DNA from: Lachnospiraceae bacterium
GTDB taxonomy: Bacteria; Bacillota; Clostridia; Lachnospirales; Lachnospiraceae
Direction: 5' to 3'
Assembly: GCA_017484135.1 (NCBI GenBank)
Contig: JAFUTQ010000013.1
Span: forward strand, 1-54,578
DNA: 54,578 bases
A model generated the notes under the pieces. That model had not been told where the DNA came from. It saw nothing but the letters and a program-made list of their open reading frames with translations, and did no database searches. Positions 10,881 through 54,578 of this stretch are shown in pieces. The first letter of the stretch is position 1. The number at the start of each line of letters is the position of its first letter. The position numbers and the translations under genes were made by a program.

Positions 10881-10925
10881 ATGATTTGAGGGTCAAAAGT
10901 CATGCCGGCCTGACCCTCAAATCAT
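10881..10925 (-). terminator. Terminator-like hairpin after msmK
   Basis: A perfect 15-bp stem, ATGATTTGAGGGTCA paired with TGACCCTCAAATCAT, lies 9 bp beyond the msmK stop codon. Its right half GACCCTCAAATCAT recurs at 34867-34880. The loop contains GTCATGCCGG, a motif also found in the large palindrome at 31289-31501, so this may be a repeat-family member used as a terminator. Confidence 0.7.
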
Positions 10926-30309: not shown

Positions 30310-30349
30310 TTTCCGTACCTCTTTCTTCTAAATTGTTACTTGGAACCGG

Positions 30350-30375
30350 CACGCGACGCTTCGCGTCACCTGCCA
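30350..30375 (-). repeat. 26-nt GC-rich leader repeat, copy 1
   Basis: CACGCGACGCTTCGCGTCAC followed by CTGCCA matches 45089-45114 at 24 of 26 positions. Both copies sit on the leader side of a minus-strand gene, 26-41 bp before the start codon. It contains a small ACGCGA/TCGCGT hairpin here. Confidence 0.6.
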
Positions 30376-30408
30376 TGTCATCGGAAGCCATTTATAAATG
30401 AGATTCGC

Positions 30409-31221
30409 TCATTGGGCTTGCTCTGTCAATTCATCCAGCGTGCCAAAGGAATATCCCATTTCTTCCCACTTGGTCAAAAGCTCATCTAAAATCTGTCCGT
30501 TGGTCGAGGAGGTATTGTGAAGCAGCACAATGGCTCCGGGATGGATCCTGCCCAAAAGCTTCTCAAAGGCCTCCTCCTGTGTCGGCTGCTTATCCTGATA
30601 CCAGTCCACATAGGCCAGACTCCAGAAAAATGTCTGATAGCCCAGCTCCTGCGCCATGGCCAGGTTTTTTTCACTGTATTTTCCCTGCGGAGGTCTGTAA
30701 TAATGATTCAGCGGTGTACCTGTAATCTCCTCAAACAGGGCTTCCACATCGCCCAGCTCCTTTTGGAAGGATGCCATATCGGAAATCTCGGACATATCCG
30801 GGTGGTGGTAGGTATGATTTCCCACCGTGTGTCCTTCCTCCACCATGCGCTTTGCCATATCCGGAGAGGTTTCCAGAAAATGTCCCACGACAAAAAACGT
30901 GGCAGATACATTGTGCTTTTTCAAAGCGTCCAGAATCAGCTCCGTATTTCCGTTTTCATAACCGCAGTCAAAGGTGAGATAAATCTTTTTTTCATCGGGA
31001 CTTCCCAGATAGTAAGCATCATATTGCTTCAGCTCATCAGCCGTTACATTTCCGGTAGGCTGTGTCCCCGCCTCTCCAAAACCCAATCCCCAGTTTTCCG
31101 TATTCGGAACAATGGAAAAGGTGCTCTGCCACCCCTCCACCTCCTCTGCCGTTCTTCGTCCCACGCAGAAGACAATTACCAGAATGCATAGCACGATTGC
31201 AAGATGTTTTTTTCGGATCAT
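30409..31221 (-). CDS. pdaA: Polysaccharide deacetylase, PdaA-like
   Basis: NodB-family carbohydrate esterase 4, probably deacetylating N-acetylmuramic acid for delta-lactam formation in peptidoglycan. I use the ATG of MIRKKHLAIV (270 residues) because AGGCGG precedes it; an upstream ATG lies inside a likely promoter. It has an N-terminal membrane anchor or signal peptide (about 5-22). Catalytic motifs: LTFDCGYENGNT (metal Asp pair), HTVGNHTYHHPDM (metal His pair), RPPQGKYSEKN and the late LLHNTSS. The TFDCGYENG form is that of PdaA. In Bacillus PdaA serves spore cortex; a spore role here is inference. Confidence 0.88.
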   Translation of the reverse strand: MIRKKHLAIVLCILVIVFCVGRRTAEEVEGWQSTFSIVPNTENWGLGFGEAGTQPTGNVTADELKQYDAYYLGSPDEKKIYLTFDCGYENGNTELILDALKKHNVSATFFVVGHFLETSPDMAKRMVEEGHTVGNHTYHHPDMSEISDMASFQKELGDVEALFEEITGTPLNHYYRPPQGKYSEKNLAMAQELGYQTFFWSLAYVDWYQDKQPTQEEAFEKLLGRIHPGAIVLLHNTSSTNGQILDELLTKWEEMGYSFGTLDELTEQAQ

Positions 31222-31288
31222 AATAAAAACCGCCTGATATGTTTTATATAGTATATTAGACAGCTTCATAAATCATGCGTGGCATTCA

Positions 31289-31501
31289 AAAGCCCGGTCG
31301 GGGAGTGGTGTCGGTGGACAGACCGGAACGGGGCACGGAGGTTCACATCGTGAAACGATATGAACCCTTTGCGCAAGAAATGTCAGAGGAATGCTAGCAT
31401 TCCCCTGACATTTTTGTGCAAAGAGTCAATGCCGGCTCCGCCGGCATGACCTCCGTGCCCCGCTCCGGTCAGTTCCCGACTCCACTCCCCGACCGGGCTT
31501 T
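31289..31501. repeat. 213-nt cloverleaf-like palindromic element
   Basis: Two arms of about 53 nt (31289-31342 and 31449-31501) pair almost fully, starting AAGCCCGGTCGGGGAGTGG and ending near GGGGCACGGAGGT. Inside are three hairpins: ATCGT/ACGAT, a long one centred on GCTAGC (GGAATGCTAGCATTCC within matching CTTTGC and AAATGTCAG), and ATGCCGGC/GCCGGCAT. No open reading frame or transposase is seen. Bases 31411-31451 recur inverted at 54514-54554 (40 of 41). It fills most of the gap before metY's 3' end. Confidence 0.85.
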
Positions 31502-31535: not shown

Positions 31536-32843
31536 TCAGAGTGCCTTAAACGCCTCATCCAAATCTTCGATAATATCATCGATATTTTCTGTTCCGATGG
31601 AGAGCCTGATGGTATTCGGCTTGATTCCCTGATCTAATAATTCTTCCTCGTTGCACTCTGAATGTGTGGTAGATGCCGGATGAATCGCAAGGGATTTCAC
31701 ATCCGCTACATTTGCCAGCAGGGAGAACAGCTCCAGATTGTCAATAAATTCCTGTGCCTTCTTTGCATCTCCCTTGATCTCAAAGGTAAAGATCGATCCG
31801 CCGCCGTTCGGGAAGTATTTTTTGTACAACTCCTGCTGCGCTGCATCCGTTGTAATAGACGGATGATTGACATGCTCCACCAGCGGCTGGTTTTGCAGGT
31901 ACTGAACCACCTTCAAGGCATTCTCAACATGACGCTCTACCCGAAGAGACAGCGTTTCCAGCCCCTGCAGGAAAAGAAATGCATGTACCGGAGAGAGTGT
32001 GGATCCCGTATCACGCAGCAAAATTGCACGGATATAGGTAGCAAAGGCTGCCGGTGCGCAATCCTTTGCAAAGGATACCCCATGGTAGGATACGTTGGGC
32101 TCTGTGAGCCACGGATATTTGTCACTGGAGGTCCAGTCAAAGTTCCCGCTGTCAATTACAACTCCGCCAATGGCTGTTCCGTGTCCGCCGATAAACTTCG
32201 TTGCGGAATGTACCACGATATCTGCGCCATACTCGATGGGACGCACCAGATAAGGGGTCGCAAAGGTATTGTCCACGATCAACGGGATCTTGTGTGCATG
32301 CGCAATGTTTGCAATGCGCTCAATATCAACCACCTCTGAGTTGGGATTTCCCAAAGTCTCGATTTCGATTGCTTTTGTATTGTCCTTGATTGCCGCCTCA
32401 ATGGCATCATAATCAAAGGGATCTACAAACGTAGTTTCAATTCCGTAATCCGGCAGCGTATGCGCCAGCAGATTATAGGTTCCGCCGTAAATATTTTTTG
32501 CTGCCACGATATGATCGCCTGCATGCGCTACGGTCTGAAATGCATAGGTCAGTGCAGCTGCGCCCGATCCGAGAGCAACCGCTGCCACGCCTCCCTCCAG
32601 CGCTGCAATTCTCTGCTCAAACGTTCCCTGGGTAGGGTTCGTCAACCGTCCGTAAATGTTGCCTGCATCCCGCAAACCAAAGCGGTCTGCGGCATGCTGA
32701 CTGTTATGAAATACATAGGAAGATGTCATGTAGATCGGTACTGCTCTTGCGTCAGTCACCGGATCCGGATTTTCCTGACCCACATGCAGCTGCAAGGTTT
32801 CAAACTTAAGGTTTCTCTCTGCTCTCGTTTTCTTATTTGCCAT
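31536..32843 (-). CDS. metY: O-acetylhomoserine sulfhydrylase
   Basis: Makes homocysteine (or cysteine from O-acetylserine) directly from sulfide. The 435-residue length and the insertions relative to trans-sulfuration enzymes mark the MetY/Cys-D type. Motifs: [20 protein letters not shown], the PLP site [27 protein letters not shown], the PLP lysine in [17 protein letters not shown]. cysK lies 56 bp upstream on the same strand and supplies the same sulfide route, so the two probably share the cysK promoter and Rrf2-type control. Confidence 0.95.
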
Positions 32844-34825: not shown

Positions 34826-34866
34826 AAAAGGTGTAAAGTCTTTTTGATTAAGATTTTACACCTTTT
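34826..34866 (+). terminator. Terminator of mini-gene 1
   Basis: A perfect 12-bp stem AAAAGGTGTAAA/TTTACACCTTTT. The stem sequence and part of the loop (GTCTTT-TGA) match the terminator of mini-gene 2. It also lies just past the end of nifU on the opposite strand, so it may serve both directions. Confidence 0.8.
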
Positions 34867-34884
34867 GACCCTCAAATCATAAAA

Positions 34885-40093: not shown

Positions 40094-40138
40094 CACCTAA
40101 TTTTATTTTTTTGTGATATAATTTTATAATCATCGAAC

Positions 40139-40276
40139 GCTGCCAGCACGATATTATACTCTTCGGGACACGCTTCCGCTACGCGAAAAACGCAACGGTA
40201 CTAGGCTTGCAAAATACGCAAGCCAAGAACCGGCGTTTTTCAAGTGTCCCGAAGAGTATAATATCGTGCTGACAGC
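40139..40276. repeat. 138-nt nested inverted repeat beside groES
   Basis: A perfect 28-bp arm pair (40144-40171 and 40244-40271, beginning CAGCACGATATTATACTC) extends to 33 bp with one mismatch. Inside are GAAAAACGC/GCGTTTTTC and GGCTTGC/GCAAGCC with flanking near-pairs, so almost the whole element can fold on itself. No open frame. It could be a bidirectional terminator or a dead mobile element. Confidence 0.85.
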
Positions 40277-40320
40277 TGTTGATTGGCACGATGCAAAATT
40301 GGACAAAGTAATAAGATTTG

Positions 40321-45063: not shown

Positions 45064-45088
45064 GTCCCTTGCCTCCCAGTTCCAGCAG

Positions 45089-45114
45089 CACGCGCCGCTT
45101 TGCGTCACCTGCCA
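45089..45114 (-). repeat. 26-nt GC-rich leader repeat, copy 2
   Basis: Matches 30350-30375 at 24 of 26 positions, in the same orientation relative to the following gene. It lies between the hisA promoter and its ribosome binding site. Confidence 0.6.
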
Positions 45115-45132
45115 AATCAAAATCACGAGCCT

Positions 45133-54386: not shown

Positions 54387-54513
54387 GTTCCTTCTCCTTT
54401 TCACTTATTATTTGTACTTACGATACCTATTTTGTCCCATTCCGCTGTTTCTATTCATGTGCTTCGGAACTCTTTTCCGGGAATTGATTACCGGGTCAGG
54501 TTGGGGGTGCTTT

Positions 54514-54578
54514 GGTCATGCCGACGGAGCCGGCATTGACTCTTTGCACAAAAACCGCTTCGGAAAGCTAGCTTTTCG
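54514..54578. repeat. Partial second copy of the cloverleaf-like palindrome
   Basis: Bases 54514-54554 equal the reverse complement of 31411-31451 at 40 of 41 positions, including the CATGCCG hairpin and TTTGCACAAAAA. The following AAGCTAGCTT centre takes the place of GCTAGC in the first copy. The element is cut by the window end. Confidence 0.8.

Follow-up and report, generated by a model that had tools for sequence, protein, structure and literature searches.

Bacterial MITEs are short and intergenic, occur in many copies and carry terminal inverted repeats. The repeat family described here, from the genome of a Lachnospiraceae bacterium, shares these properties, and direct repeats flank a minority of its copies as well as related copies in a genome of another genus (G206). 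It differs from MITEs in its conserved three-hairpin core, in its highly variable arms and in the inverted host DNA present in several copies, and a parent transposon was not found here. The REP/BIME sequences with RAYT are likewise palindromic, extragenic, present in many copies and often located downstream of genes. REPs, as characterized in the pertinent part of PMC3733652, are 20–40 bp long and end in a GTAG (or CGTC) tag, whereas the present family has a 112-nt three-hairpin core with no GTAG/CGTC tag at its foot, which sets it apart from REPs; the core consensus begins with AGGTTCACATCG and ends with GCATGACCT.

In E. coli, quasipalindromes are an established setting for template switching (PMC7202029), and rRNA and microRNA stems show patterns consistent with it (PMC8794818). 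As far as these two sources set it out, the process makes arms alike, generates inverted copies of adjacent sequence, and creates or corrects stems in one event, all of which resembles the situation described below; what would differ here is the repeated action at one mobile family, at many sites of one chromosome. In sponge mitochondria, hairpin elements are repeated, in some cases as double or triple elements, and lie in spacers (PMC2800124); in the account given there, their stems are conserved and their loops variable, whereas in our family the core loops are conserved and the outer stems vary. Nematomorpha mitochondria contain long perfect inverted repeats that include coding sequence, and the portion of PMC6649704 used here describes no conserved mobile central core, which the cloverleaf family has. 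A description of this family was not found in the literature searched, with most subscription journals outside the search.

The window that we analyzed, 54,578 nt in length, is a whole contig (C97) of an assembly comprising 2,545,834 bases in 116 contigs, with a completeness of 83%. A first-pass annotation had described positions 31289–31501, between a pdaA-like gene and metY, as a four-way junction without a coding frame, in which 53-nt outer arms pair almost completely and enclose three hairpins. This description was borne out by the RNA fold of the region, which has an energy of −163.3 kcal/mol in comparison to −73.5 ± 4.5 kcal/mol for 200 shuffles, none of which was as good (z −19.8). The arms measure 51 and 50 nt, no open reading frame of at least 150 aa is listed across the region, and profile matches agree with both neighbors: the metY-like product matches TIGR01326 above the cut-off (606.8 bits), and the PdaA-like deacetylase matches TIGR02884 slightly below it (288.9 bits, cut-off 298). 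There were no Rfam matches at the gathering score in the window, and the copy thus does not belong to an Rfam family by this measure. The features of the window are as follows:

10883..10923, + strand: what is left of a deleted copy, a short remnant bounded by type-A ends that face each other (end-pattern search)
30409..31269, − strand: gene of a PdaA-like polysaccharide deacetylase, 5' end 19 nt from the arm
31289..31339, + strand: left outer arm, 51 nt (arm measurement)
31340..31451, + strand: conserved core, 112 nt, GGTTCACATCG ... GCATGACC, three hairpins in a four-way junction (fold)
31340..31366, + strand: hairpin 1, GGTTCACATCG/CGATATGAACC (fold; kept in 27 copies)
31367..31424, + strand: hairpin 2, long and central, apex GCTAGC, upper stem varying by paired changes (fold, covariation)
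31425..31450, + strand: hairpin 3, GTCAATGCCGGCTCCGCCGGCATGAC (fold, covariation)
31452..31501, + strand: right outer arm, 50 nt, paired to the left arm with 4 mismatches and 1 gap (fold)
31536..32843, − strand: gene of a metY-like O-acetylhomoserine sulfhydrylase, 3' end 34 nt from the arm
34861..34878, − strand: solitary type-A end GATTTGAGGGTCAAAAGG (end-pattern search)
54493..54513, + strand: outer arm GGGTCAGGTTGGGGGTGCTTT of a second copy, truncated where the contig stops (L023 has this arm on either side)
54514..54578, − strand: partial core of the second copy, in opposite orientation to that of the first (sequence alignment)

The 41-nt inverted recurrence that had been noted at 54514–54554 is real and longer than reported, with 62 nt at 85% identity (31390–31451 versus 54514–54575). 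The same outer arm is found at the start of contig C82 (L023), which is probably the continuation of the copy at the contig end.

Two other repeats were observed in the window. A second small repeat family, GCACGCG..CGTCACCTGCCA, is about 80 nt long when whole and 85–92% alike; it occurs in the window at about 30343–30424 and at 45088–45119, and elsewhere at L187, L105, L096, L071, L009, L091, L007, and L075, in places inserted into or beside cloverleaf copies, for instance in the central hairpin of the L187 copy. A third inverted repeat (40132–40283) has 40-nt arms and a 72-nt spacer, and its one other copy among the loci compared (L071) is split by the second repeat family. We rejected this repeat as a second case of variable arms, as its arms are conserved (~89%) in the one other copy found.

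The second cloverleaf copy had suggested a dispersed repeat, and a family was indeed present in the same genome. A nucleotide search with the 213-nt region gave at least 56 matches on both strands (best 40 of 120 candidates scored). A covariance model was built from 27 copies, with the damaged copies L009 and L023 left out of 29 loci, and gave at least 140 matches on both strands (best 150 of 1902 candidates scored); it placed the core of the window copy at 31339–31452 with 123.1 bits. Merging yielded at least 91 places, two of which, on L091, overlap. As a short, non-coding sequence at many dispersed places, the family corresponds to MITEs. At 77 of the 91 places, the core is near-complete (at least 104 nt for the gene-distance count or at least 100 nt for the end clustering) and the arms have at least 7 nt. 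Besides these places, an end-pattern search of the genome revealed solitary ends and half copies. The half copies L174, L178, L179, L180, L181, and L183 have one end and a whole or partial hairpin, with no second arm, and may record aborted copying or later deletion.

In the core, the three-hairpin structure is well maintained. Over 27 copies, 97.7% of the cells pair, a percentage that is biased upward because the structure was taken from the same alignment; the slid controls and the two-sided counts are the better evidence. Two-sided changes are present in 21 of 47 core pairs, and the covariation score was 0.240 in comparison to 0.090 for shuffled alignments, with none of 500 shuffles as high, while sliding the partners abolished the signal. 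The earlier impression that the central hairpin changes between copies and still stays palindromic is therefore correct.

Related cores are present in several genera, and their distribution is patchy. The structure-aware search of relatives that the first-pass annotation had proposed detected the family and related cores in few genomes. In searches of over 40 genomes, the filters were stricter and few candidates per genome were scored, so the following counts are lower bounds: of the 61 genomes in the relatives set, 2 carry the family, the own genome included; among seven congeners it is present in one (G005); and it is listed in 8 of 397 family genomes, again including the own genome, 6 of which are convincing by fold. 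G338 and G121 pass the E-value cut and were rejected, as L125 and L126 fold mainly into a plain long hairpin. An exact hairpin pattern found 13 stretches in genome contigs; those in two Lachnospiraceae MAGs are real according to the model (81.5 and 85.6 bits), and we read the others as chance or other hairpins (L117 with 35.9 bits, the rest with at most 27.1). No element was found in phage or plasmid records, and a single match of 14.8 bits in viral contigs is not the element.

The conserved element does not include the outer arms, which differ among copies. The window copy (L001) and L002 have cores that are 96% alike, and their arms of 44–51 nt are unrelated, with nothing evident in common beyond the foot. 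Among the matches listed for the own genome, the outer 40 nt of the left arm in the window had none besides itself. Within each copy, the two arms nevertheless pair: over 1764 ungapped positions of arms of at least 8 nt, there were 70 mismatches, corresponding to about 96% Watson–Crick pairing, with the 139-nt arm of L081, which runs to the contig end, left out of this count. Near-perfect arms reach 69 nt in L021, where 2 positions are mismatched, and fully matched arms reach 46 nt.

The kind of mismatch is informative. There were 20 G.T/T.G, 21 A.C/C.A, and 29 other mismatches, and the lack of a G.T excess over A.C points to copying of the arms at the DNA level rather than to RNA selection. 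Concordant changes were seen in the 41 rows with at least one type-A-like arm, where both arms were off-consensus at the same place 52 times, in comparison to 14.5 expected if the arms were independent, and 45 of these 52 paired deviations carried the same letter; shared ancestry and a few damaged rows contribute to this count. In the same rows, one-sided changes (72) outnumbered same-letter changes (45), which shows that homogenization is incomplete. In view of the absent wobble bias, template-switch copying accounts for the pairing of the arms better than RNA selection does. The earlier proposal that fold rather than sequence is kept in the central hairpin stands.

These data also bear on the possibility that the copies are structured RNAs at gene 3' ends with roles in stability, termination, or regulation, in which arm pairing is selected. 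The strong covariation of the core hairpins, the occurrence of arms near stop codons (see below) and the related cores in several genera would all be in line with such a function, yet the arm mismatches show no G.U bias, Rfam gave no match in the window at the gathering score, the distribution is patchy (one of seven congeners), and half copies exist. Moreover, point selection would not write 20–50 nt of host-derived sequence into both arms. We therefore regard a structured RNA as very unlikely.

The arms have a biased composition. Of 90 rows (without L081), 38 have arms that measure 24 nt or more, and these are G-rich on their 5' side (G 0.396 versus C 0.122). As the flanks, read toward the element, are also G-rich (G 0.249 and 0.262 versus C 0.144 and 0.139), this may in part be coding-strand composition. 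The outer arm part has more T than A (0.269 versus 0.223), whereas the inner 18 nt have less (0.175 versus 0.297); per copy, T exceeded A in 13 of 38 and was below A in 21 of 38. An excess of G-C and U-A stem pairs is proposed as an outcome of template switching in PMC8794818, and the arms fit this asymmetry only partly: the outer arm part agrees and the inner 18 nt do not.

With a genome in 116 contigs and a completeness of 83%, near-perfect arms might in principle stem from assembly or amplification, especially since L015, L023, and L081 have arms that continue up to the last base available and since a contig end is less than about 50 nt away from L013 and L059. The other copies, however, lie within contigs, the arms carry accumulated differences (5 mismatches each in L088 and L018), and another genome (G337, L128) also shows an extended G-rich arm, which makes an artefact extremely improbable.

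For the position of the copies relative to genes, we considered open reading frames of at least 80 aa, called mechanically by a script, within 250 nt of a copy. Of 74 sides facing a gene 3' end, 53 had this end within 25 nt of the arm or overlapping it, with 14 overlaps, in comparison to 7 of 58 sides facing a gene 5' end that were within 25 nt. The genes around the copies are arranged convergently in 13 cases, in tandem in 32, and divergently in 10; a preference for convergent genes is not claimed (74 versus 58 sides, p ~0.10).

Three of the overlaps were checked within the genus, with matches in all eight genomes each time, and empty sites were compared in congeners with 66–95% protein identity. 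At L011, the end of thrC (TIGR00260 above the cut-off) lies in the right arm and the left arm is an imperfect inverted copy of it, with 5 mismatches and 2 gaps between the arms; the ThrC proteins of seven congeners end in FL plus one to seven residues. At L088, a gene of the DJ-1 family (TIGR01383 above the cut-off) ends within the left arm, and the right arm is the inverted copy with 5 mismatches. The downstream flank resumes 0–10 nt past the stop codon in the four of seven congeners that were aligned (G004, G006, and G007 were left out) and 180–183 nt past it here, with alignment scores of 127–132 in comparison to shuffled maxima of 41–51. At L060, an ABC-F-like gene, for which the best model is below the cut-off and the query was a partial protein, has its conserved ..DN stop in the left arm, and the right arm is the inverted copy with 2 mismatches and one gap. 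In G004, the sole congener aligned, the flank resumes 11 nt past the stop codon, in comparison to 196 nt here (alignment score 142, versus 53 for shuffles).

At all three loci, L011, L088, and L060, the inverted copy of native sequence is absent from the relatives compared, which were congeners only. Across 133,522 bases from 34 congener loci (thrC, DJ-1, ABC-F, panB, and metY), the element model had no match with an E value of 1 or lower. At the panB–panC locus (L017), the fourth one compared, the congener spacers are short and diverged. On the basis of these sequence comparisons, the simplest description would be an arrangement W-X-Y before and W-X-element-X'-Y after the event. Two of the inverted copies have their source on the left side of the core and one has it on the right, so there is no fixed side.

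We also considered whether palindromes that were already there, for instance intrinsic terminators, receive the element in their loops, in which case the arms would be old host stems that were never copied. The contrast between the 3'-end and 5'-end sides speaks for this, and so does the window locus, where metY is followed by the pdaA-like gene in G003, G004, G005, G006, and G007 (scores 1017–1122 versus 34 in G001, which has a different sequence beside metY). The spacer contains a strong hairpin in all five of these congeners, followed by a T run in four, and the element model had no match in these metY loci. The outer arm in the window ends in CTTTTG, and it may include or replace the metY terminator. 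However, TTTT at the far arm end was found in only 1 of 40 long-armed 3'-adjacent sides, this one being the window copy, in comparison to 15 of 200 control windows located farther out, and terminator-loop insertion was rejected as a general rule. Arms of up to 69 nt with 2 mismatches (L021) and the native coding ends within the arms of L011, L088, and L060 also argue against old host stems, and where the DJ-1 and ABC-F flanks resume 0–11 nt past the stop codon in the aligned congeners there is no room for a palindrome. Insertion into existing palindromes is thus a rather unlikely explanation.

A MITE-like 18-nt end of type A, ATGATTTGAGGG[G/T]CAAAA, is common to 34 of the 77 near-complete copies, and 9 share a second G-rich type, so terminal inverted repeats are shared as in MITEs. 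Two pairs and 30 unmatched copies make up the rest; the clustering threshold was set from shuffles, and several of the 30 are merely short-armed. Fourteen of the 30, including the window copy, have arms of at least 24 nt, and most of these have no recognizable end between arm and core.

We examined the flanks of the 34 copies with a recognizable end on both sides. Direct repeats of at least 7 bp (7–8 bp) were found in 5 of them (shuffled mean 0.06, maximum 1), and an inverted flank extension beyond the end in 11 (shuffled pairs, mean 0.13, maximum 3), while no copy had both. Two of the 11 extensions (L061 and the reverse copy of L063) are tandem duplications of the element's own end and not host DNA. 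In L061 (974–1001 and 1115–1142, reverse strand) and the L063 reverse copy, both arms at once carry a tandem duplication of the type-A end, with GATTTGAGGGGC present twice in L061, which is another symmetric change. The extended left arm of L046 holds ATTCACGTCGTGAAACGAT, which resembles hairpin 1 of the core, as if part of the core had been copied outward.

G206, which belongs to another genus, has a related core with different outer ends, TTGAGTTTCC. Direct repeats of about 8–10 bp are visible by eye at many of its 18 loci, and for 20 end pairs at these loci the untrimmed 9-nt flanks had a mean identity of 0.46 in comparison to 0.32 for mismatched pairs (0.61 versus 0.30 at the best of nine trims). 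As regards the target-site duplications for which the first-pass annotation had suggested a search, direct repeats thus flank a minority of copies here and also copies in G206, and these direct repeats indicate that the family is or was mobile. The partner transposase mentioned there did not turn up: none with these ends was noticed in the own genome (end-pattern search; 20 solitary and two window sites; ~17% of the genome missing) or around the G206 elements (element search; four one-sided matches inspected). In the G206 copies L213 and L215, a foreign sequence splits the central hairpin at its CTAG apex, and the frame that starts at the L213 interruption is presumably IS630-like. We read this sequence as a nested insertion and not as the mobilizer, and insertion sequences that target CTAG may use the apex for landing.

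We propose that the family is a non-autonomous MITE-like element whose arms are rewritten and lengthened after insertion by template switching during replication, that is, by quasipalindrome correction, and we assign this reading a probability of roughly two in three. In a first step, the element would insert between genes with a short target duplication, as the direct repeats in a minority of copies here and in G206 suggest. During replication, the single-stranded core and arms would then fold, the polymerase would stall, and the nascent strand could prime on the opposite arm. One arm would thereby be copied onto the other, which would make the arms alike, consistent with the observed concordance. 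If copying proceeded past the end of the element, an inverted host copy, in the checked cases of a gene 3' end, would be placed on the far side; the target duplication would be replaced and the palindrome lengthened, and the three loci described above have the structure expected of such a product. The core itself would probably be kept because a mobilizing enzyme recognizes the core or its ends. We infer that the copying is replication template switching, that it follows insertion, and that the element is mobilized by an outside enzyme.

The main gap in this proposal concerns the long arms that abut the core without a known end, including those of the window copy. Outward growth alone leaves the loss of the old end unexplained: either rewriting has made the old ends unrecognizable, or copying was coupled to insertion. 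In the latter direction, the cloverleaf fold itself could be the engine, with insertion or replication coupled to a fold-back synthesis by which a near-perfect inverted arm is made from the host flank; each copy would then build a unique arm from its target, and the constant end would be the fold plus a foot of 2–3 nt (GG/CC). We consider such an engine unlikely. An inverted target duplication could also be part of insertion as such, with fold-back or hairpin-primed copying joining core and inverted flank at once. About a dozen copies with long arms on the core and no recognizable end, the unrelated arms on near-identical cores, and the inverted-flank copies without direct repeats would agree with a single event. 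On the other hand, copies with normal ends and direct repeats exist, and in L088, L017, and L046 the extended palindrome still contains a normal end, in keeping with growth that followed insertion, so that a single event is quite improbable.

If template switching after insertion is indeed responsible, the family also carries a caution, as paired changes in a repeated hairpin can arise by DNA copying and need not imply a conserved RNA. Near-perfect inverted repeats of up to 69 nt with 2 mismatches are tolerated in this organism, which bears on hairpin processing by the host. This one chromosome would then offer dozens of natural replicates of the birth and growth of palindromes around the same core, from which the rate, direction, and limits of bacterial template switching would be readable from sequence.
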